This document shows, piece by piece, positions 1,134 through 22,665 of a stretch of DNA of 25,011 bases. The DNA comes from a virus: IMG/VR virus record IMGVR_UViG_3300025133_006759, positions 1-25,011 of that record; one strand, given 5' to 3'. The translations under genes were made by a program, and so were the position numbers. Numbering within the stretch: the first letter of the stretch is position 1; each line of letters begins with the position of its first letter. The notes beneath the pieces are model-generated. The model searched no databases, was not told the origin of the DNA, and saw only the letters and a program-made list of their open reading frames with translations.

Positions 1134-2541
1134 TATCATTCCTCTCGGATGTGCGCTCCGCTACAAACGATTGAATGTACGCATTGTCCATAATGAAAGA
1201 CCCCTTACCGTCCGGCAGAGGCTCTAAATCATACATAGCACGAACCTCGTCAATGGTCATGAAGGACTTCGCCTTTTGGATGTCCATTTTGAGCTGGTCC
1301 TCAATCGCGACCATGTCCAAGCCTGTGAAGACGAGCTCAAAACGTGGATCTAAACCATTGATCACATACTGATTTAACCAACGTTCTATAGCTCTCAATA
1401 AAGGCCGCAGTCCCTTTTCTTTTGAGCTCACGATCTTATATGAAGGCGTGGTTTGATTCATTGAGTGCGTTACGCCCTCTTGTCCGAAATCGAAACCCAC
1501 CTCCGCAGGGTCGATTTGGTAGATGCTGCACAGCTGTTTAATGTTGTAATGTATCCACTGCTGAAACTCCATCTCCCGATTAGATGTGCTCAAATTCAGA
1601 CTCTGAATGTCCTCATTCGCATCCGGGTCTAATTGAATCAGGGGTGTCTTCTTCGCGTTGTGCGACCCCGACAGCATGGAGTAAAACTCTCTGCGAAACG
1701 CTCTAAATAGTTGTGGGTGCATCTTGGTCTTTACAGCGACGATCCCAGAGACAGAGATCCCATTTGTAAAATTGCTCGCGTTGTAAACCTCCGCATTCAA
1801 AAGATGCGTAAGGATCCCGACAATCTCTTCGAGCTCAGGATATCCATATCCCCGATACTTTAACTCGCTCCTGGGTCTTCTAATCCCAAAACAGAGGTCC
1901 CTCGCATTAAACTCAGCCTTCACCTTATTGTTCAACACCTGCACAAAGTGAATACCTTCAGGGTCGCGGTATCCAACCTCGCGCTCGCCCTCTGTTAGTT
2001 TTGCTCTGCGAATCGTAGAGGAGTCCACATTCATAAACCCTGCAATACCTCCAACACGACTCCTGATAATCTCGAAACACGCTTGGTCATAAGTCAAAGA
2101 ATCCCGGACCAGCATCCTCAAAAAGACCTCGAAATTGTTCTCAAAAGATATACGAGGGTCTCCACAAGAGAGCATAAACTGATAAATTTCCTGAATCGTT
2201 GCAATATCTTCAGGTGTAGGTATCGCTGTCCTGTCTTTTAAACGAACCTGAAACCCAATGTCGCCTCCTGCCATCGCAGGTCTCGCAAACTCCGCTACCT
2301 GGTTTACTCTCGTCTGGAGTATCGCTGCGATGAGCGGCACACGAGTCATGGCTTTTAATTGCTCGTAGTTCAGCCCTCTATGAGGCTCCGCGTTATTGGC
2401 CCCGTCTTCCGCCATGAAAGCATTCGAGAGGTCCTGATTAGAGTATTGATACGACGCAGGTTCAGCAGGTGCCTTGTCCGGGGCAGGGAGCGCCTTATTG
2501 AGGCTGAACCAGCCTCTCACCTTTTGTAATGCTGTTGTCAT
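1126..2541 (-). CDS. Phage portal protein
   Basis: A 471-aa protein with the features of HK97/SPP1-type portals, the dodecameric ring at the capsid vertex through which DNA is packaged. Visible features are an N-terminal segment that samples successive repeats (LKAMTRVPLIAAILQTRVNQVA), a central part with LKYRGYGYPELEEIVGIL, corresponding to the YGxSPLE-type motif of portal proteins, and a stem-like LCSIYQIDPAEVGF motif. The C-terminal MTIDEVRAMYDLEPLPDG resembles the 'T.NE.R...gl.p..gGd' ending common in this family. Length is normal for the family. The start ATG at 2541 follows the end of the deaminase gene with a 4-base ATGA overlap (2538-2541), so the two are coupled. Confidence 0.88.
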   Translation of the reverse strand: MTTALQKVRGWFSLNKALPAPDKAPAEPASYQYSNQDLSNAFMAEDGANNAEPHRGLNYEQLKAMTRVPLIAAILQTRVNQVAEFARPAMAGGDIGFQVRLKDRTAIPTPEDIATIQEIYQFMLSCGDPRISFENNFEVFLRMLVRDSLTYDQACFEIIRSRVGGIAGFMNVDSSTIRRAKLTEGEREVGYRDPEGIHFVQVLNNKVKAEFNARDLCFGIRRPRSELKYRGYGYPELEEIVGILTHLLNAEVYNASNFTNGISVSGIVAVKTKMHPQLFRAFRREFYSMLSGSHNAKKTPLIQLDPDANEDIQSLNLSTSNREMEFQQWIHYNIKQLCSIYQIDPAEVGFDFGQEGVTHSMNQTTPSYKIVSSKEKGLRPLLRAIERWLNQYVINGLDPRFELVFTGLDMVAIEDQLKMDIQKAKSFMTIDEVRAMYDLEPLPDGKGSFIMDNAYIQSFVAERTSERNDND

Positions 2542-3098
2542 GAGGGGTCCCTTTGGAATGGCGAGTTAGATACGTCCCTCGTAACTTGAAAAAGAGGGAG
2601 AGGAGGCGTTATTAGGTCTTTGTAGTCAAATGATTCAAGGTCACCGTCTATGATCTTAACATTCACACTATGTTTCCTCAACGTGTTAAGGCCGTTATCC
2701 GTATCATACACGCCACCGACACATATCACACACTCTGCACCTACTTGTACAATCGCTTTAGCACATATTCTGCAAGGTTCCCCATTAATGATGAACCAGG
2801 AACCCATAAGTGAAGTCCCTAAGCGCACAGCATTATATATTGCGTTCTGTTCTGCGTGTACACACCCCACCTCAAGTTTCTCACCGCTCGTAATGCCTAG
2901 TAGTTCGCGACTACATAAGGCTTTATCTCCACACACAGATGTCCCTCCGCGAAGCCCTCCATTATACCCTTCACTTAAAATCACATTAGATTTAGGATCT
3001 ATAACGACACACCCGAACTGTCTCCTGAGGCAAGGAGACAGCGCCGCTAAGGAGAGACAATTCTGGATTCGTTGCTGTATGTGTTTAGCCTTCAACAA
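2538..3098 (-). CDS. dCMP/cytidine deaminase family protein
   Basis: A 186-aa zinc-dependent deaminase of the ComEB/T4 dCMP deaminase type, which would convert dCMP to dUMP and so feed thymidylate synthesis. The catalytic HAE is at residues 81-83 (HAEQNAI) and the other two zinc ligands are in PCRIC (C109, C112). Upstream are the substrate-loop GYNGGLRGG and extra cysteines (C56, C62) typical of dCMP deaminases. No ATG is available. The start is a TTG at 3098 (or the adjacent TTG at 3095), which lies inside the end of thyX after a TAGGGAT ribosome-binding-like stretch and gives the usual N-terminal spacing to SPCLRRQFGCVV. The tail after residue 150 is specific to this protein. It sits directly after thyX, matching a shared dTMP pathway. 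Confidence 0.87.
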   Translation of the reverse strand: MLKAKHIQQRIQNCLSLAALSPCLRRQFGCVVIDPKSNVILSEGYNGGLRGGTSVCGDKALCSRELLGITSGEKLEVGCVHAEQNAIYNAVRLGTSLMGSWFIINGEPCRICAKAIVQVGAECVICVGGVYDTDNGLNTLRKHSVNVKIIDGDLESFDYKDLITPPLPLFQVTRDVSNSPFQRDPS

Positions 3099-3786
3099 GA
3101 ATCCCTAGACCGTAAACTATCTCTAAGGTCTCAGGAAAGATATCTTCCATGTGAAGACGCATCGCCTTCGCGACCTCTTGTACTTCAGGTTGCGCGTGCG
3201 CGTCTAACCTCAGTTTCAGAAACTTGATATAGTTATGTAAACTCCCTGTCATCCAAAATGTACTGTACAAGTTCTGTGGGAGTATAGCTCGCGCTTGTTC
3301 ACGGCAAACCCCACTATCTAACAATAACTTATAGGCTTGATAGGCTTTGTTCGTTTGTTCTGTGTACCACGCGACTAACGAGGCGTTATGGTCTACCTCC
3401 GCGCCGGTGCTGCACTGTAGATTTCTCTTAGACTGCGCTCTGAATCGCTGTGGGATATGAAATTCGATACAATTACTCGTGTATCTTCGTGACACCTCAT
3501 TATATGAGAATGTGCGATGTCTCATTATCTGAGATCTGATATATAGTGGACATTTGATACGGAACGTGATCGTAGAGTGCTCAAAAGGACTCGTGTGCTT
3601 TTCTTTTATCATGAAAATGAGTAACTTTTTATCTCTAACACTTAACTTTTCGACGGACGCGAGGCCATCAAGATCCTCTAAGAAAGAAGCTCGTGCGGCG
3701 AGTGCTGCTCTCCGGTCATCTCCCATCCAATCAATCAATGAGACCTCGCCGATGTCATCATTGTATATACCTATGGCGTTTATCAT
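3085..3786 (-). CDS. thyX: Flavin-dependent thymidylate synthase ThyX
   Basis: A 233-aa enzyme that methylates dUMP to dTMP using methylene-tetrahydrofolate, FAD and NADPH. The diagnostic ThyX signature RHRxxSxNExSxRY is complete at residues 89-102 (RHRTFSYNEVSRRY). It is preceded by the FEHSTITFRIKCPLYIRSQIMR region that binds flavin and dUMP. A C-terminal LKLRLDAHAQPEVQEVA segment corresponds to the conserved LR...aQ.EI helix. Length is typical. The ATG at 3786 overlaps the stop of the upstream 84-aa gene as ATGA (3783-3786), indicating translational coupling. Together with the dCMP deaminase just downstream it forms a two-gene thymidylate module inside a late-type operon. Confidence 0.96.
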   Translation of the reverse strand: MINAIGIYNDDIGEVSLIDWMGDDRRAALAARASFLEDLDGLASVEKLSVRDKKLLIFMIKEKHTSPFEHSTITFRIKCPLYIRSQIMRHRTFSYNEVSRRYTSNCIEFHIPQRFRAQSKRNLQCSTGAEVDHNASLVAWYTEQTNKAYQAYKLLLDSGVCREQARAILPQNLYSTFWMTGSLHNYIKFLKLRLDAHAQPEVQEVAKAMRLHMEDIFPETLEIVYGLGILVEG

Positions 3787-4842: not shown

Positions 4843-7800
4843 TTAGATGATGAAGTATTTTACACCGTTACTTACGATGGTTATCGAATTGTACTGTGTC
4901 GCGATATCGAAGGTGGCTGCCGCGTCAATGTCGGTTCCTCCTCCATTTATAGTGACGGTACCGGTTCCGATATTCTTAATATCGTATTGGAACCCATTAG
5001 GGAGTGCTGTCGCAGCAGGAAGCGTGACTGTAATAGTGCCCGTAGCGGTATAGATCTCTCTAGTCGCGTTTACAGGAGGCGTCGAGAGAGGTGCTGTCGC
5101 GCTCAGTCCAGTAACCTCTACAGGAGCGTCAGGCAGGTCAGAGACGATAAAATCAGCGCCGTCGTACGTTACACGGATATACGCTTTGCCGGGGTGAACT
5201 GTGACGGCGTTCGTGTATGTCGTACCGTCACCGATAACTTTGAAGTTCTCATTACCCGACGTTGCATTGTCTTCGAGGATAAACCTGCCCTGTTTAAGCC
5301 TTCCAAGTGTAAACGTCCAACCAGCATATAGACCGGCGGCGGGGGGCATCTTGACAGTAATATCGTTATTAGTATTCCCTGTAAATGTAATCCTCTGATT
5401 CCACGCAACGGCTGAAAGAGCGACTGAAACGGTAGTCGTATTCGTTACATATTCTTTCTCTAGGCTACCTTGATTCTCGACAACCCATGTGGCTTGGCTA
5501 GTCACATAGGTACATCTAATAGTGTCCCCTACAGGGTCGAAGGTTACGCTGGTTGTAGAACCCGTGTCGTTAGAGGAGGCTCTACGCACCTTCTGTGAAG
5601 TGTTCCCTGTCAACGTAATAGGGCCTTCAGCGAGGCGTGTCAGAAACACAAGGTCCCCATCGCTAGGGGACGCCGGCATAGTCACGGTTTGGGAGGTCGC
5701 GAGATGATCAAAGATATGATGATACCCGACCTGTGCGGTAATTGTGTTGTTGCTCGTTGTGTAAGCGATTGTCGGGTTGCTTGGCGAAGAAGGGAGATTC
5801 AGAAGTTGCGAGCCATCTATTTGAGGAAGTCCAACGGTGTTACCGATAGTCTCAAGGAGTGGGATATCACCAGCTGCCGTTCCGACATTTAGATTCGCGG
5901 CAGTGCCTGTGGCTTGGCCGAAGATATACCAGTTTGTACCGTTCCAACGAACAGTCATCTGTTGGTTATTGTTAGTCAGTATATGACTACTCGCCGCAGT
6001 GCTCCCATAATTTACGAGTGTCCCTCCGTCTCCGGCATTCTGGCGGATGTCGAGTAAACCAGCGTTCTCCCTGCTTACAATCACGGTATCACCATCGCTC
6101 AAAAGGGACGATGCTGGGAGAACAATAATAACCGTTGTCCCCGATCCATAAGTGAACCAGTACGCTTCGTTTTTTTGTGAGGCTATGGATGTTGTAGTCA
6201 CCACGTTTACATCGAATCCCGACATGGGGATACCGGTCAATTGTGAACCATCAACAGCAGGTAGTTTAGTTTGCGCTGTTAATTGGACTACTTGATTTGC
6301 AGCGGTTCCAACGTCTAAATTCGCAGCGGTTCCAGTGGCTTGATCGAAGATGTACCACGCCGAGCCATTCCATCGGATTGTTAGTTGCTGATAGTTGTTT
6401 TGAAGCGTCACACTGGCGGCTTGCGTTGCCCCAGAGTTGACAAGCGTTCCCCCATCCCCAGAGTTCTGCGTGATGACGAGCTCTCCTGCATTGGCCCTCA
6501 CGATCACCAACGTATCCCCCACTGCAAGGGTAGAGCCTAGAGGTAACGTCACTGCAATAGAAGATCCCGACGCAGCAGTATACCAATATGCTCTGTTTAT
6601 CGTAGGTGAATGTGTTGTCGACATCGAGGTAAAGACGCTAAGGCCGGAGAACCCTCCCGACTGATCAACCCAAGAGAGGACCCCATTGGCGTCGGTCTCG
6701 AGGACTTGATTTACTGCCCCCACCGCAGCAGGTAGGGTAAGTGCGTAATCAGTAGCCACAATATTAGGAGATTTAATCGCGATATAATTAGTGTCATCGA
6801 TATCATTGATACGAAGCTCACCAGAGTTCGTGTCACCCTTTACAACAACGGCTCCAGTTCCGTTTGGTTGGAATGAGATGCTCGCATCGGTCTCCTGCGC
6901 GACAAGACTCTCTAGTGAATTGGGGCGCTCAACAACCCATTTGTACATTGGAGTTTGTGTGGTTTTAAAACAATAGGCTACAATTTTTATGAAAGTTCCG
7001 GCGGTCACTTCAAGAGATGTCGTTGATTGAGAGAGGTGTGATCCACTTGCGTCTTCAATAGTGTCGTTCGCATCACACGCTAGCGTTAAGGTACCTGAAC
7101 GCGCACGACCGAACCACATCTCGATCATTGATCCGTCGCCCGTTCCGCCTCCCATGTTGTCTGGTAGTAACGTAGTAGTTAAGCGTGGGAGTGTCAGCGA
7201 GAATGTGTTCGTATTGTCCGCCCACTGGTATACGGTGAGCCCGTTCAGAGTAGGCTCACCAACACCCCCGGCTGTGTAACTGTTAGAATTATATATATGC
7301 TTCATCCGTCGAGAGGCTGCCGCCCCGTCAGCGCCGTCATTACCTGCGGGTCCTTGTGCTCCTGCGGGTCCTTGTGCTCCATCGTCCCCATCATTACCTA
7401 CGGGTCCTTGTGCTCCTACGGGTCCTTGCGCTCCATCGTCCCCATCATTACCTACGGGTCCTTGTGCTCCTACAGGTCCTTGTGCTCCTACGGGTCCTTG
7501 CGCTCCTTCAGCGCCATCATTACCTGCGGGTCCTTGTGCTCCTGCGGGTCCTTGTGCTCCTGCGGGTCCTTGTGCTCCTGTTGCTCCTCCAACAACCGAT
7601 TTCTGACTAAGGTTATTAGCCGCAGATCCTGCATTAACAGTCTCTGCGGCAGCATCACTAATGTTTAATGTACTTGTATATTCATTCTCCCCATTAGTTG
7701 TGGGGTATGTCATAATAGTTGCTGCATTATTTACATCATAGTCTGGATTTAAAACAACATTATGAACGACACTCAACCTACCTTGGTTACACTGCATCGC

Positions 7801-9303
7801 TGTATTATGTGAAGAGTGCAATAAATAGTTACCTGACCCTATGTTTGTTGATCCCATGCACACAATTTGTCCCCACGCATCTCCACTGCTCCCTATTCCT
7901 GTCCATACTTTATGATTCCCGTTAGTCATGGTGTTCGACTCTACCGTAACCTCCAGACCATGCCAGATTTGAATAGAGGAGCTCCATGAAGAGATCACAG
8001 CATTGTTTACGACAGTATTCCCTTTCCCTCCTATAATAAGTATCCCGTTATTAGCTGCTTCTTCGACAACATTAGAGTGAATTTGTACTCCTGTGCATCC
8101 AAACGCGGAGTCCCCTGAATAAGGGGACGCGCCTGTCGCGAGATAGATCCCACTTTCCAATGTCCTGTACGTCTTGTTCCCATATATTTGTCCGTTGGTA
8201 CAGTCTTGGACCCTTACCCCACGAAGACAGTATTCTACAAAGCAATTAGATACTTGGACATCTGAACACGCTTCTATACGGGTCGCTCCACCATTAGATG
8301 TATTGTTACCCGCCCAAACGAGAGCTTGATCCGTTTGATTTTTTGATCCGTCGTGATCTACAACATTACCACTAGACCCACAACGCACAAACCGCACATC
8401 TGAGAGGATGACGTTTGTACAGTCTTTAGCATATACTCCATATTTCGCAGTATCTATAGTTAGGGCGCGGAACTGAAGCCCTGCTGCCTTATTCGTCATA
8501 TAGAAACAGTCACTAGTGATTGCTCCCGCTGTAACAACGACCTCAGAACGGGACACACCCACAAAGGACAGTGAGCCTGTCCAAGCAGTCGTATCTTGTG
8601 TATTGAACGTATGTGTACCGGCTTGAAGAAAAATTGTAGTGTCTGTGGTAGCGTTCGCCGCAGAGAGCGCGTCACTTATCGTTGTAAAAGGGAGATTCAT
8701 ACTCCCGTCCCCAACAGATCCCCCAGGATAGTTCTGCTCTACATCAACATATATCACTTGATGGGCGAGAGATGGTGAAATCGTCGGTAATCCTGTGAGA
8801 TCCGTGTATAATCCTGAAGTCGCGACTGTAGCGAGTGCTGTAGAAGTCCAATTCGTACCGTCTCCTATAATAGCGTTACCAGCAGTAGGAGTGAGTGCCG
8901 CGATATCTGAACTCTCCGAGTTATCCACAACATCAATCTTAGACCCTGCGAGTGTGCCTCCCATATCAGCATTGATGATTAGGTGATCGCCTACGCTCAT
9001 CGCGAGCGTGGCGTATGTCCCTGCAACAGAAACATAATATACCTCGCCCTTACCTGCGTTAGTTAAACCTGCGCCTGTTGCAGACACTAAACCTGTACTA
9101 GCGTCGAACTGCCCCTTATATGACATACCGCCTATGACACCTGCGGCAATGCGCTCGGCAACGGTCAACGGTGTCATTACGAGACTATCACTGGTTCCTG
9201 TCGCGGCTTCAGCACTTGTGGCGATTCGGATCTTACCTGCAGCGGTCTCCGTCGCGTCAGAGACTGTGGAAGCATCTCCAAGTGGGATAAAATTGATGCT
9301 CAT
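4843..9303 (-). CDS. Large tail fibre/adhesin with beta-helix and collagen-like domains
   Basis: A 1486-aa virion protein, probably the receptor-binding fibre. Residues 1-170 are a tail-attachment-like region. Residues ~180-560 form a right-handed parallel beta-helix of the pectate-lyase/NosD type: it opens with [12 protein letters not shown], then [16 protein letters not shown], and carries many short N/V/G-rich rungs. Residues ~572-661 are a collagen-like (G-x-y)n stretch built of [12 protein letters not shown] and GNDGDD units. Residues ~884-1026 and ~1027-1171 are two homologous modules, each ending in DGSQL(T/L) and containing TLVN, RWNG and WYIF motifs. A last domain with DG-rich repeats follows. 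The ribosome binding site AGGA lies eight bases before the ATG at 9303. Beta-helix domains in fibres often bind or cleave surface glycans. No catalytic residues can be assigned here. Confidence 0.9.
7321..7590 (-). repeat. Collagen-like G-x-y coding repeat in fibre gene
   Basis: An 18-base unit (minus-strand sense GGTGCTCAAGGACCCGCA-like, encoding GAQGPA) is repeated with GNDGxxGA interruptions. Codons differ between copies at third positions, so the repeat is under protein-level constraint rather than a fresh duplication. Slippage between units would change fibre length. Confidence 0.9.
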
Positions 9304-12371: not shown

Positions 12372-14048
12372 TTAAATCCTATCTGCGTATATTAGCCTCT
12401 GCGGCTGGCCTGTAGTCTCGGATATTATCTTAGCGCGGCAATACGCTCGATAAGATGCTGATCCGAAGATACTGTGCTTATATGTGCATATATGTACGGT
12501 ATCTGCTCTCTGGCCTTTACGATGGGTCCTCGCGATTAATTGCTCACTCATTGTAGCATCCGCTAGAGGATGTGCGATCAGACTTACGGACCAAACCTGC
12601 AAGTTTTTACCGGTAGCGTGACTCTTAATTGACATAATACAGTTCTCTGCGTGTGGCGGTATACTAGACCCTCCTCCATAATAAGGGATATTGAGCGCAG
12701 ATGAAAGTTCTCTTCCAAACTCCACGAAGTCAACCCATATAATATAAGGGACTGTCTGCTCGCTCGCCCATATAGCGATGTCCTCAATCAAGTATCGTGA
12801 GACCCACACTGTCTTCTTTGGTGGGACAGGCCTATCTTTCACACGCTGCCAGGCGTCGTAGGCCTCCTCAAAGGCTCCCTGTAAATCCAAAGGTAAGTCA
12901 GTAAACCCCGACTCTATAAGATAACGAGAATCAAAATCAGGGATGTCTATCTCAAGAATCTTATTTAGAGCTCGGTTCCATGCTCGACGATGCTCTAACC
13001 ATTCTGTATCAGGCTCTCCATCAGGCCAATCCCAATAATAGAGCATCCCCATATTCATCTGTGACAGAGCTCTCAGCGCAAAAGCATCGGCGTCTTGCCA
13101 GAGGTGCTGACTCGCTGTTATAGCGTCAGAATCGAAATCAATGTCTAATGTAGAGAGTGTCTCGGCCATCGGCCCCTCTTCAAAACCTTGACGTATCGCG
13201 TCCTTTAACTCTTTAGGGATTTTAAGATCTCTCGTGTGGATCTGAAGAGAAGAGCCCACTTCAGCCTCTACGGTCACAACAACACCAGCAGCAGAACATA
13301 TACGAGCGTATGTTGCGGATCGTGGATCATCTCCCCACTTACGCATAGGTGCCCATGTCCCATACTGATACTTATTCGCATCTCCTGTGAGAACAGCATC
13401 AAAGACCTCAACATCTCGTGAATTTCTCGGGAAAGGGGAGTTCTCCTCAAGTGCCCAATCTGAGAGATGCGCGATATCTCCAATACTCCTATTATATAAT
13501 GTGCCCGACATCGCCACGAACCGACACTTCCCGTTCTCGACTAAAAAGCGAGCGAGACGCTTCGTGCGGGTACTCGTCATATCTTTTAGGTGATGAGCCT
13601 CATCACAAATAATTAAGTCGGGCGCGTATTCTTTTAAGATGCGGAGACCACTAGGTCTCGATAACTTTTGATAACTGACCACATATGGAATCTCGAATTG
13701 GAAGTGTTTTTGGTACTCCTCTGCCTCCGACTTAGTCTTCTCTCGTAAAGAAGCAGGGACCAACAGAAGCACTCGTGTCTTTTTCATCACCCGCCCTAAT
13801 AGAAGAGTGATCAGTGTCTTTCCATGACCACACCCTATAAGTGCGATGAGTCCTTTAGTTTTTTGTGCCTCTATTAGAGCTTCTGATTGGATCGGTCGAA
13901 GACGCATTTCTCCATCAGGTGTGCGTAAGGCCTCTGTCATATCCTTATATTCTCTGCGCTTCGTAGGGAGATCGCAGATTCTCTTTGTTTCAGATCTCGT
14001 GACTTTCTTCTTATTACTTGCAAACAGATGCGCGACTTGTGGATTCAT
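12372..14048 (-). CDS. SNF2/superfamily 2 helicase-like ATPase
   Basis: A 558-aa DNA-dependent ATPase. Motif I is GCGHGKT (residues 72-78), motif Ia is VLLLVPASL, motif II is DEAH (149-152), motif III is MSGT (180-183), and motif VI near residue 508 is ARTHRKGQ, the signature of SNF2-type enzymes. A RPIQ Q-motif-like sequence lies at 51-54. The C-terminal RecA domain carries IMSIKSHATGKNLQ, matching motif V. It probably remodels or unwinds DNA during replication or recombination. The ATG at 14048 overlaps the stop of the upstream nuclease gene (ATGA), so nuclease and helicase are made together and may act as a pair. Confidence 0.92.
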   Translation of the reverse strand: MNPQVAHLFASNKKKVTRSETKRICDLPTKRREYKDMTEALRTPDGEMRLRPIQSEALIEAQKTKGLIALIGCGHGKTLITLLLGRVMKKTRVLLLVPASLREKTKSEAEEYQKHFQFEIPYVVSYQKLSRPSGLRILKEYAPDLIICDEAHHLKDMTSTRTKRLARFLVENGKCRFVAMSGTLYNRSIGDIAHLSDWALEENSPFPRNSRDVEVFDAVLTGDANKYQYGTWAPMRKWGDDPRSATYARICSAAGVVVTVEAEVGSSLQIHTRDLKIPKELKDAIRQGFEEGPMAETLSTLDIDFDSDAITASQHLWQDADAFALRALSQMNMGMLYYWDWPDGEPDTEWLEHRRAWNRALNKILEIDIPDFDSRYLIESGFTDLPLDLQGAFEEAYDAWQRVKDRPVPPKKTVWVSRYLIEDIAIWASEQTVPYIIWVDFVEFGRELSSALNIPYYGGGSSIPPHAENCIMSIKSHATGKNLQVWSVSLIAHPLADATMSEQLIARTHRKGQRADTVHICTYKHSIFGSASYRAYCRAKIISETTGQPQRLIYADRI

Positions 14049-20503: not shown

Positions 20504-20574
20504 CACCGTTCGTCATAATCTTCATCGTGACGATCGTCGCGATCTGGGTACTAGATGAACGCGGGATATTTTAG
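20500..20574 (+). CDS. 24-aa single-transmembrane peptide
   Basis: Starts in an ATGA overlap with the 50-aa gene. Residues 3-18 (PFVIIFIVTIVAIWVL) form one transmembrane helix with a short charged tail (DERGIF). Its stop codon is part of the TTTTAGGAG that serves the following double start. Small phage membrane peptides of this kind act as holins, antiholins or host-takeover factors; which applies is unknown. Confidence 0.5.
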   Translation: MTPFVIIFIVTIVAIWVLDERGIF

Positions 20575-21853
20575 GAGCAATAATGTGGGTAATACCAAAG
20601 AAATTAGACACCTCAGCTTATGTGCCGGATACGGTGGAATTGATCTCGGACTCTCAAGAGTTATCGAAGATATTAGAACGATCTGTTTTGTGGAGATCGA
20701 AGCCTTCGCCATCGAAAACCTGGTCGCGAAGATTGAAGCGGGATTGCTCGATCTCGCGCCTGTTTACACAGATCTTAAAACCTTCCCATTCGGAAAGTTT
20801 CGAGGATGCGTGGACATCCTCTCTGGAGGCTTCCCTTGTCAGCCCTTTAGCGTCGCCGGACAACGCGCAGGGACAGAAGACCCAAGACATTTATTCCCCT
20901 ACATTCTCAAAGGCATCACAGAATGTAGACCTCCCGTTGTTTTCCTTGAAAATGTCGAAGGAATCATCTCAAGTAAACTCAAAGGAGACCGCTGGAACGA
21001 TCCCGAAGGGACGCCCGTTCTGTTGCATGTCCTCAGAGAGCTGGAAAGAGTGGGTTACCAGGCGACGGCAGGAGTATTCAGTGCGGCTGAAGTCGGTGCG
21101 CCTCACCAAAGAAAAAGAGTGTTCATCGCAGCTGTGGATCTCACCGGCAGCACAAGCGAGCGCATCACAAGAGCCCTTATTCACCAAAGAGGGGGCGCCT
21201 TGGAAGGGCGACGGGCGGGCATATCGAGCGGACGGGACTCACAAATCGATGACACTAGACTTGCAAGCATATGCTACCCCGCAGGCCGAGGACAAGAGCA
21301 ATACGGATGGGAACCCCCAAGGACGGTGGGCAACGCCCAAAGCGACACCAACAGGGATGACAGCGAGAACGCGGGGACGCCCTATCGAGAAATCCACTCA
21401 TCTTACAACGCAAGTTTGGCTAGAGAATCAAGTGAATTGGGCAACGCCAACAGCGAGCGAAGGGAACAAGATCTCGAACAATCCCGAATCGAAGGGGCAG
21501 CGGGGGTTGTCCAACGACCCGGCGCTTCGTTGGACAACGCCGATCGCGAGGGATGTCTTCGAGATCTCGTTGACGAAGCCTGTAGCGATACGGAAGGACG
21601 GGAGATCGCGGATGGATACGATGCCTCGACAAGTGCATCCTCAACAAAAATACAGGGGCAAATTGAACCCGCGTTGGGTCGAAACTTTGATGGGAGTTTG
21701 TGTGGGGTGGACTATGCCAAGCTGTGCCTCTCCGTGGACAATAGAACGGACGAGCTCCGACTGCTCGGGAACGGAGTCGTGCCCGAGACAGCCGCGCGAG
21801 CATTCTATATCTTGTGGCGAGAATTGGCCTACGCCTCCCGCATGCTCCGCTAA
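20555..21853 (+). CDS. C5 cytosine-specific DNA methyltransferase
   Basis: A 432-aa Dcm-type enzyme that adds a methyl group to C5 of cytosine. Motif I is LSLCAGYGGIDLG (20-32), motif IV is GGFPCQPFSVAGQR with catalytic C95, motif VI is ENVEG (132-136), motif VIII is QRKRVFI (185-191), and motif X is GNGVVPETAARAF (from 405). Between VIII and X, where the target-recognition domain belongs, the sequence is unusually polar (R/S/D/E/G/N-rich, with VGNAQS, LGNANS and LDNADR repeats) and mirrors an overlapping frame. The ATG at 20555 has only a weak site. A GTG at 20585 is in frame and uses the AGGAG at 20573-20577, so the true start may be 20585. It may protect phage DNA from restriction. Confidence 0.9.
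   Translation: MNAGYFRSNNVGNTKEIRHLSLCAGYGGIDLGLSRVIEDIRTICFVEIEAFAIENLVAKIEAGLLDLAPVYTDLKTFPFGKFRGCVDILSGGFPCQPFSVAGQRAGTEDPRHLFPYILKGITECRPPVVFLENVEGIISSKLKGDRWNDPEGTPVLLHVLRELERVGYQATAGVFSAAEVGAPHQRKRVFIAAVDLTGSTSERITRALIHQRGGALEGRRAGISSGRDSQIDDTRLASICYPAGRGQEQYGWEPPRTVGNAQSDTNRDDSENAGTPYREIHSSYNASLARESSELGNANSERREQDLEQSRIEGAAGVVQRPGASLDNADREGCLRDLVDEACSDTEGREIADGYDASTSASSTKIQGQIEPALGRNFDGSLCGVDYAKLCLSVDNRTDELRLLGNGVVPETAARAFYILWRELAYASRMLR
20573..20587 (+). promoter_or_regulatory. Shared Shine-Dalgarno and ATGTG double start
   Basis: AGGAG (20573-20577) precedes ATGTG (20583-20587). ATG at 20583 opens the 576-aa frame and GTG at 20585 is in the methyltransferase frame, with spacings of about 5 and 7 bases. 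One ribosome binding site can therefore serve both overlapping genes. Confidence 0.6.
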
Positions 21854-22313
21854 AGATTCCAGCTATACAACCTATTTACGAAAGTGCATCAACCGCGTAA
21901 AAGCAGGTGGCGCTCCGTTTGCGCCCACGTTACAAGTCTCAGTAGAAAATCCAAACGCAGACACCTCTCTGTTCAAAGACTTAGATCTGAGTAAAGATAC
22001 GGAACAGTTAATAAAAGAGATAAAAGGAGAAAATTGGGCTACACCTACGACCCGAGACTGGAAGGGTGCGTATAGCGAAGAGAACCAGAAGAAGAAACCG
22101 AGAAATCTCTTGCTGGATCAAGTCAAAGCAGAGACAATTTTAGACCCTGTATTCGTCTATTTGGTTGCTTTATTAAAAAATGAAAACCCTAAAAAGGGGA
22201 TCGCGATACACATTTTATTGCTGAAACGTAACATAAATGTACAAAAATTGAGAAAAGAATATAGAATTGAAGAGTCACCGGAGTCTTATATAGAGCGCGT
22301 GCTGAATGCCTGA
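20583..22313 (+). CDS. W-x-TP-repeat protein overlapping the methyltransferase in another frame
   Basis: A 576-aa frame with a good AGGAG site, open for 1.27 kb inside the methyltransferase gene and 460 bases beyond its stop. It carries recurrent W-x-TP blocks: WATPKATPTG, NWATPTASEG, RWTTPIARDV, NWPTPPACSA and NWATPTTRDWKGAY. It also has KLNPRWVETLMGVCVGW (from residue 361) and a SLKMSKESS block followed by EEWVTRRRQEYSVR-like sequence. From memory, such WPTPxAxD / LNPxWVExLMG proteins occur in other phages and prophages, next to or annotated as cytosine methyltransferases, without a defined function. The part downstream of the methyltransferase stop keeps the same repeat type, and the stop overlaps the KTSC gene start (ATGCCTGA), both arguing for real translation. 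Residues ~1-190 largely shadow methyltransferase motifs and could be unselected. Confidence 0.65.
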   Translation: MWVIPKKLDTSAYVPDTVELISDSQELSKILERSVLWRSKPSPSKTWSRRLKRDCSISRLFTQILKPSHSESFEDAWTSSLEASLVSPLASPDNAQGQKTQDIYSPTFSKASQNVDLPLFSLKMSKESSQVNSKETAGTIPKGRPFCCMSSESWKEWVTRRRQEYSVRLKSVRLTKEKECSSQLWISPAAQASASQEPLFTKEGAPWKGDGRAYRADGTHKSMTLDLQAYATPQAEDKSNTDGNPQGRWATPKATPTGMTARTRGRPIEKSTHLTTQVWLENQVNWATPTASEGNKISNNPESKGQRGLSNDPALRWTTPIARDVFEISLTKPVAIRKDGRSRMDTMPRQVHPQQKYRGKLNPRWVETLMGVCVGWTMPSCASPWTIERTSSDCSGTESCPRQPREHSISCGENWPTPPACSAKDSSYTTYLRKCINRVKAGGAPFAPTLQVSVENPNADTSLFKDLDLSKDTEQLIKEIKGENWATPTTRDWKGAYSEENQKKKPRNLLLDQVKAETILDPVFVYLVALLKNENPKKGIAIHILLLKRNINVQKLRKEYRIEESPESYIERVLNA

Positions 22314-22665
22314 TACTTTCCAACCCTATGTACACGCTCCTACAGACACCCGCCTGGGCGATGTACTCTCCTCTTTCTTTCTTAAAGATCCACAAACAAA
22401 GCAAGAGGATCTCGAAGTCGTATTCGTAGCGAGCTCCAATATCGTTTGGATGTCCTATTCGACATCACGCAAAGAGATGACGATAGAGTTCCGGAAAGAC
22501 AATAAGCAAAGAGGCGGTGGCCCACGCTATGTCTATTATCATGTACCCTACGCTGTGTTCTTAGCTTTGAAACAATCAGGGAGTAAGGGCAGGTACTTCT
22601 ACTACAACATTAGAGGCCCCGGCAGAGTAGGGAAATCAAGATTCGCTTATCGAAGACTCAGATAA
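22306..22665 (+). CDS. KTSC-domain protein
   Basis: A 119-aa protein with a KTSC domain (PF13619) over residues ~42-110: ASSNIVWMSYSTSRKEMTIE for the first strands, YVYYHVPYAVFLAL for the 'Y.Y..VP..v...l' part, then SGSKGRYFYYNIRG for the closing 'S.G.yfn..Ir' part. KTSC domains are small, often nucleic-acid-associated modules found alone in phages or fused to lysyl-tRNA synthetase-type proteins; their activity is poorly defined. The first 40 residues contain an acidic linker. The gene starts inside the end of the W-x-TP ORF (8-base overlap), so its translation depends on that ORF being translated. Confidence 0.78.
   Translation: MPDTFQPYVHAPTDTRLGDVLSSFFLKDPQTKQEDLEVVFVASSNIVWMSYSTSRKEMTIEFRKDNKQRGGGPRYVYYHVPYAVFLALKQSGSKGRYFYYNIRGPGRVGKSRFAYRRLR

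Follow-up and report, generated by a model that had tools for sequence, protein, structure and literature searches.

The 25 kb phage contig analysed here (25,011 nucleotides, the whole of which is referred to as the window) carries portal, terminase, family-A polymerase and ThyX genes, and contains a locus that very probably encodes one C5-cytosine methyltransferase as two subunits overprinted on a single stretch of DNA. Specifically, two reading frames remain open together for 1271 bases (Table 1), in agreement with the approximately 1.27 kb of double openness described in the initial annotation. In the arrangement proposed, frame 1 would supply the catalytic subunit, composed of the AdoMet and cytosine site formed by motifs I-VIII together with a motif X reached via an unstructured linker, and frame 2 would supply a small-domain subunit, composed of an N-terminal part encoded over motifs I-VIII, a series of WxTP modules, motif IX, and two further modules located past the frame-1 stop. 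A single Shine-Dalgarno sequence would place ribosomes such that initiation at either codon of an AUGUG yields both subunits. We infer translation from this AUGUG, assembly of the two subunits into an HhaI-like enzyme, and methylation of the phage genome by that enzyme.

Table 1. Features of the overprinted methyltransferase locus, in window coordinates.
Feature	Position	Strand	Remarks
Frame 1 (long form)	20555-21853	+	432 aa, from alternative upstream ATG 20555
Frame 1, C5-cytosine methyltransferase catalytic subunit (putative)	20585..21853	+	motifs I-VIII and X
Frame 2, putative target-recognition / motif IX subunit	20583..22313	+	576 aa, offset +1
Shine-Dalgarno AGGAG	20573..20577	+	5 nt upstream of ATG
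ATGTG ambiguous start	20583..20587	+	ATG 20583 opens frame 2, overlapping GTG 20585 opens frame 1
Frame-2 N-terminal part, overprinted on motifs I-VIII	20583..21134	+	across the family, few +1 stops and dN/dS 0.56
Five WxTP modules, putatively target-recognition	21135..21662	+	starts 21135, 21270, 21327, 21438, 21531
Frame-1 linker, motifs VIII to X, 'LGNANSERR' repeats	21218..21763	+	+1 shadow of frame-2 WxTP modules
Motif IX, LNPRWVETLMGVCVGWT	21663..21713	+	frame 2
Motif X, LRLLGNGVVPETAARAF	21755..21814	+	frame 1; PHROG matches phrog_363 and phrog_1008
Frame-2 C-terminal extension	21825..22310	+	beyond frame-1 stop; WxTP modules at 21825, 22035

As had been noticed at the outset, frame 2 continues past the methyltransferase stop in the same repeat style, the extension containing two more WxTP modules, and overlaps the start of the next gene, a KTSC-domain gene at 22306-22665, by 8 bases. 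Among the ten flanking window genes, a Pfam scan revealed no dedicated restriction nuclease; the same scan returned a helicase-like ResIII/DEAD match at 12375-14048. Elsewhere in the window, the minus strand encodes a dCMP deaminase adjoining the ThyX thymidylate synthase (2538-3786) as well as a long protein with collagen-like repeats, possibly a tail fibre (4843-9303).

The openness of the two frames lies far beyond chance. When the frame-1 codons of the window were shuffled such that the frame-1 protein was unchanged, 3.93 stops were expected in frame 2 across the motif I-VIII part and 2.26 across the middle, and none is present in either (P 0.003 and P 0.027, respectively); in the reverse test, in which frame 2 was held fixed, 5.73 stops were expected in the middle of frame 1, and again none is found. 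Homologous loci were collected in two ways, by frame-2 motifs and, separately, by methyltransferase-frame motifs only, and the 88 loci fetched by the methyltransferase-frame motif alone constitute a set unbiased as to frame 2. Codon shuffles of these loci predict 268 stops in the +1 frame of the motif I-VIII part and 106 in that of the middle, of which only 27 and 3 are observed; in the +2 frame, stops occur as expected in both the motif I-VIII part (723 vs. 724) and the middle (474 vs. 461). In 166 other phage ORFs, examined as a control, 2718 +1 stops were counted against 2815 expected, and not one ORF was fully open. Similarly, with a frame-2 HMM trained on half of the loci, all 46 held-out loci outscored their own codon shuffles. 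Breakage of frame 2 by stops in homologues had been put forward as the sign of a spurious overlap; frame 2 proves to be nearly always intact.

Consistent with these counts, dN/dS values, which are approximate and were obtained by simple counting over 41 independent family pairs, reverse along the gene. Across the motif I-VIII part, dN/dS is 0.24 (95% 0.21-0.27) for frame 1 and 0.56 (0.49-0.64) for frame 2, while across the middle it is 0.77 (95% 0.54-1.07) for frame 1 and 0.22 (0.16-0.28) for frame 2. Within close pairs, changes in the middle fall upon frame-2 third positions, as exemplified by L022/L023, which differ at 24, 3, and 3 sites at frame-1 positions 1, 2, and 3. Together these data show that, across the family, the main coding frame switches within the gene, frame 2 taking over in the middle. 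Across motifs I-VIII, frame 2 is also under purifying selection throughout the family; the initial annotation had named a lack of purifying selection on frame 2 as a second sign that would count against the pair, and had ascribed the first ~190 residues of that frame to shadowing by frame 1, a view contradicted by the family-wide avoidance of stops and by the purifying selection detected in precisely this part. As the window has no close relative, these estimates describe the family and not the window gene itself. For the C-terminal extension of frame 2, comparison of the window with L015 over 37 codons showed an excess of third-position changes in this frame, with 9, 12, and 23 differences at codon positions 1, 2, and 3, respectively.

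The identity of the frame-1 product is indicated by both its sequence and its predicted structure. Catalytic motifs I-VIII, including PCQ and ENV, are present in the frame-1 translation, and PF00145 is matched with a value of 8.2e-35 over residues 18-194 only. An AlphaFold model is mostly confident over the catalytic domain (residues 16-216, pLDDT 80-97) and again over the motif X helix (residues 404-431, mostly pLDDT 80-95), with residues 273-403 predicted to be disordered (mostly pLDDT under 50) and values of 33-46 over most of the length of the linker. With the disordered stretch omitted, the model aligns with M.HhaI over 205 residues (Z 19.2, rmsd 3.6), indicating an HhaI-like fold for the modelled catalytic part. 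A small domain of its own with motif IX is absent from frame 1, in both the translation and the AlphaFold model, and frame 1 alone is therefore regarded as a catalytic subunit and an incomplete enzyme. The original claim that frame 1 contains all core motifs thus holds for motifs I-VIII and for motif X, which lies near the end, and is to be amended for motif IX, which is found in frame 2.

Within frame 2, the sequence LNPxWVExLMGxPxGWT occupies the position expected of motif IX in a C5 methyltransferase, and it resembles the known C5 motif IX, LTPRExxRLMGFP. Of 222 methyltransferase loci, 199 have motif IX in the +1 frame and two have it in frame 1, and the distance between motifs IX and X is 59, 80, or 98 nt in most loci, each of these being 2 mod 3. 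The window frame 2 matches phrog_1008, designated 'DNA methyltransferase', and the frame-1 motif X matches the same profile further along; this spread of matches over the two frames pointed to one enzyme in two frames. All 59 of 59 frame-2 homologues match phrog_1008. Searches of frame 2 against Pfam and NCBIfam recognised no domain, sequence searches against solved structures returned no match worth noting, and the N-terminal part resembles no known part of a methyltransferase. The comparison of structures suggested initially was fruitful for frame 1, as described above, and less so for frame 2: for the frame-2 relative in L061, AlphaFold alone gave a weak model (mean pLDDT 61, pTM 0.28) with N-terminal helices (parts at pLDDT 70-94), a motif IX helix near pLDDT 90, and disordered modules, and a search of this model against viral structures returned no match.

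The relationship between frame 2 and the methyltransferase is also visible in relatives in which the same parts are joined differently. In five loci (L034, L061, L067, L073, and L085), frame 1 stops after motif VIII, and frame 2 continues from motif IX into motif X, as it also does in L185, L253, and ArV1; Firecracker gp6/gp5 and ArV1 067a/b display the same split layout as L034 and L061. In Starcevich gp69, from a mycobacteriophage, and Bibwit gp4, from a Gordonia phage, motifs I-VIII, xxTP modules, motif IX, and motif X follow one another in one frame, and a profile built from overprinted loci only detects these two proteins at 7e-11 and 3e-7, respectively. The best value among 1850 decoys and frame-1 sequences was 0.26, with L188, whose frame-1 protein contains motif IX, set aside. 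Taken together, the in-frame fusions and the profile matches connect frame 2 with that part of a C5 methyltransferase which forms the small domain. In a tree of the catalytic part, split loci are scattered among overprinted ones with at least seven changes of label on well-supported branches, from which it appears that motif X has switched frames repeatedly.

These split loci also bear upon the middle of frame 1. Over 99 loci, shuffling of frame-2 codons predicts 418 stops in the frame-1 middle and 76 are observed, a comparison that is partly circular in that an open frame 1 entered into the recognition of most of the remaining loci; for the split loci, the location of motif X in frame 2 is an independent criterion. 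All 76 stops lie in nine loci, comprising the split ones (L029, L034, L061, L067, L073, and L085) and three more (L058, L098, and L163), the other 90 of 99 being without any, and each of these nine contains approximately the neutral number (e.g., 5 vs. 5.2, 10 vs. 10.7, and 8 vs. 7.3 expected). From such neutrality it appears that access to motif X is the sole reason for which the middle of frame 1 is kept free of stops.

Several further variants were observed. A third layout, with motifs IX and X in frame 1 and the xxTP part in frame 2, occurs in L188 (2480-3361) and represents either a real variant or a single-base error. The locus is in three pieces in L058, L098, and L223, with a stop-interrupted frame 1, motif X on a further small ORF, and an open frame 2. 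In L270 (4164-5153, Flavonifractor), motifs I-VIII continue in frame into motif IX and modules are lacking, probably as the result of a deletion, and from position 2501 of L042 to the end of frame 2 there is a long, unrelated-looking tail, apparently a fusion with the downstream gene. In L283 (601-1362, E. coli PCP07014), each frame contains a stop and the two stops nearly coincide in position, such that both subunits look to have been lost together. Lastly, the Bibwit gp4 gene harbours an out-of-frame HNH endonuclease (L281, 350-805), which resembles the hidden HNH insertions described previously (PMC11855218).

The W-x-TP blocks noticed at the outset in frame 2 can be resolved in the window into seven WxTP modules altogether, five upstream of motif IX and two in the extension, and from one to nine such motifs are present per frame 2 across the family. 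L091 and L125, whose catalytic parts share 95% identity, have no module in common, and L040 and L055, with near-identical catalytic parts, differ in one of five modules. Differing modules beside near-identical catalytic parts are the pattern expected of exchangeable target-recognition units, and the frame-2 modules may accordingly be those that read the DNA target. The first module of the extension is common to the window, L014, and L015, and the nearest modules occur in other phages. Single-linkage clustering joined almost every WxTP module into one group and yielded no useful types.

How two overlapping products might be initiated is suggested by the sequence upstream. The initial annotation assigned frame 2 a Shine-Dalgarno sequence of its own, and an AGGAG is indeed present; since it precedes ATGTG, however, it may serve frame 2 and frame 1 alike, and need not be exclusive to the former. 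When AGGAG is aligned to UAAGGAGG, the start distance is 12 for the ATG and 14 for the GTG, 12 being the distance seen most often in homologues whose Shine-Dalgarno sequence is clear; the frame-1 ATG at 20555 is weakly supported. Of 150 loci, 92 have an ATGTG or GTGTG in matching phase close to the start, as compared with 14 that have one in a control stretch of equal length taken from motif IV, and other loci start with xTGAATG. E. coli ribosomes have been shown to initiate in both frames at an AUGUG at distance 12/14, with AUG favoured, by Kohl and colleagues, who knew of one natural bacterial ambiguous start (PMC9841429). By analogy, both starts of the window AUGUG would be used. The window resembles the AUGUG and GUGUG starts of E. 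coli and the Thermus rnpA-rpmH start in that one Shine-Dalgarno sequence precedes two starts in overlapping frames (PMC9841429); the latter cases join different genes or reporters, whereas the window would join two subunits of one enzyme, in an arrangement conserved over a family.

Four other explanations of the locus were weighed. The idea that frame 2 is a mere shadow of the composition and repeats of frame 1 draws upon the fact that the same DNA gives the WxTP repeats in one frame and the LGNANSERR repeats in the other, and was rejected in its shadow-only form on the basis of the codon shuffles, the stop counts in 88 loci, and the 166 control ORFs; as it is also contradicted by the +2 frame, by the rates at the codon positions, and by the continuation of frame 2 beyond the frame-1 stop, its probability is close to nil. 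Nor is frame 2 at all likely to encode an unrelated protein, be it an anti-restriction protein, a nuclease, or a regulator, that overlaps the methyltransferase by chance. Such a reading would account for the failure to recognise a Pfam or NCBIfam domain and for an N-terminal part unlike known methyltransferase parts, yet it is contradicted by relatives in which the modules and motif IX are joined in frame with motif X and with motifs I-VIII, and by the finding that none of seven checked loci has a frame-2 homologue without traces of the methyltransferase frame. With respect to the initial annotation, the stop counts, dN/dS values, and controls lend strong support to its suggestion of an overprinted pair in which the second protein acts as a modification partner or specificity factor, and its alternative of an anti-restriction role found no support.

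Two explanations that retain frame 2 as part of the enzyme deserve closer consideration, each being improbable. Synthesis of one polypeptide by programmed frameshifting, in which translation of motifs I-VIII is followed by a +1 slip into the modules and motif IX and by a slip back for motif X, would fit the collinearity of motifs I-VIII, modules, IX, and X at constant spacing, and in split relatives a single +1 shift would indeed produce a full-length enzyme. The window and most relatives would, however, need two shifts; moreover, frame 2 possesses its own conserved AUGUG start and Shine-Dalgarno sequence, frame 1 stays open through the modules, and the openness of frame 2 over motifs I-VIII (27 vs. 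268 stops) and the selection acting upon it would be pointless were this frame entered after motif VIII. This explanation is rated as quite unlikely, and only slightly less unlikely is one in which both frames are translated, target recognition resides in the middle of frame 1, and frame 2 supplies motif IX only. A target-recognition domain has been predicted in the large subunit of M.EcoHK31I (PMC3404938), but in the present family the frame-1 middle is nearly unconstrained (dN/dS 0.77), is predicted to be disordered, and accumulates stops as expected under neutrality in loci with a frame-2 motif X, and single-chain relatives carry modules of the frame-2 type in the corresponding position. 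Recognition by frame 2 within a two-subunit enzyme is thus the reading preferred.

The small polypeptide of M.EcoHK31I, about 176 aa in length, is produced from another frame within the large gene. This bacterial restriction-modification enzyme (YGGCCR), by its described layout the nearest precedent for the window, has motifs I-VIII and X on its large polypeptide, together with a predicted target-recognition domain, and motif IX alone on a second (PMC3404938), and the title of an earlier report cited therein states that two proteins are required (Lee, Kam and Shaw 1995). The window agrees with M.EcoHK31I in this layout and differs in its 576 aa frame 2, its seven WxTP modules, the extension beyond the frame-1 stop, and the shared AUGUG start. 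The present data suggest recognition in the small subunit for this family, which, if M.EcoHK31I belongs to it, would run contrary to the prediction made for that enzyme. In M.AquI, a catalytic subunit with motifs I-VIII is accompanied by a second subunit containing the distal variable region and motif IX (PMC3404938), and this layout recurs in Firecracker gp6/gp5, ArV1 067a/b, L034, and L061. Motif X resides in the small subunit of M.AquI and, likewise, in frame 2 of L034, L061, L067, L073, and L085; with motif X in frame 1, the window is not of the M.AquI type. Starcevich gp69 and Bibwit gp4 are like the window in motif order, xxTP modules, and motif IX, and unlike it in consisting of one frame and one polypeptide.

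The second product, initially considered undescribed, is therefore not so in kind, given that M.EcoHK31I has been published and that phrog_1008 already holds frame-2 proteins as 'DNA methyltransferase'. The literature search, conducted mostly without subscription papers, found no description of such overprinting in phages. The kind is already known, and what appears new is its prevalence, the overprinting of the modules together with the extension, the start common to both frames, the movement of motif X from one frame to the other, the placing of target recognition in the small subunit, and the exchangeability of the modules. Among bacterial and archaeal genome loci with both parts, which were fetched by the frame-2 motif and of which some are likely prophages, 69 of 70 display the +1 arrangement, in organisms ranging from Pseudomonas to Planctomycetota and including one archaeal contig. 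Traces of the second frame can be found in existing records: frame 2 of Paenibacillus phage Diva (L027, 1501-2205) is annotated as 'g49 internal gene', two methyltransferase features are listed over one stretch in other Paenibacillus phages, and for a Pseudomonas aeruginosa plasmid (L275, 2498-3184) the frame-2 protein WP_232060884 is listed and the methyltransferase frame is absent from an incomplete gene table.

Long overprinting on the same strand is rare outside small viruses, and we know of no other case in which the halves of a single enzyme are encoded by two frames over such a range of phages and bacterial phyla. It is conceivable, at odds somewhat short of even, that these loci represent a widespread and unrecognised class of C5 methyltransferase in which the specificity subunit lies within the catalytic gene, the AUGUG sets the ratio of the subunits, and swaps of WxTP modules change specificity. 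Annotations commonly show an overprinted gene as one 'DNA cytosine methyltransferase' and overlook the specificity half, such that any methylation specificity predicted for phages from these genes would be based on the wrong sequence. As a split methyltransferase occurring in nature, the locus is of the type used for targeted methylation, and it makes testable the setting of a subunit ratio by an ambiguous start, the evolution of target recognition under a second frame, and the recombination of WxTP modules. If the proposal is true, a single catalytic subunit in combination with several modules would methylate several different sequences simultaneously.
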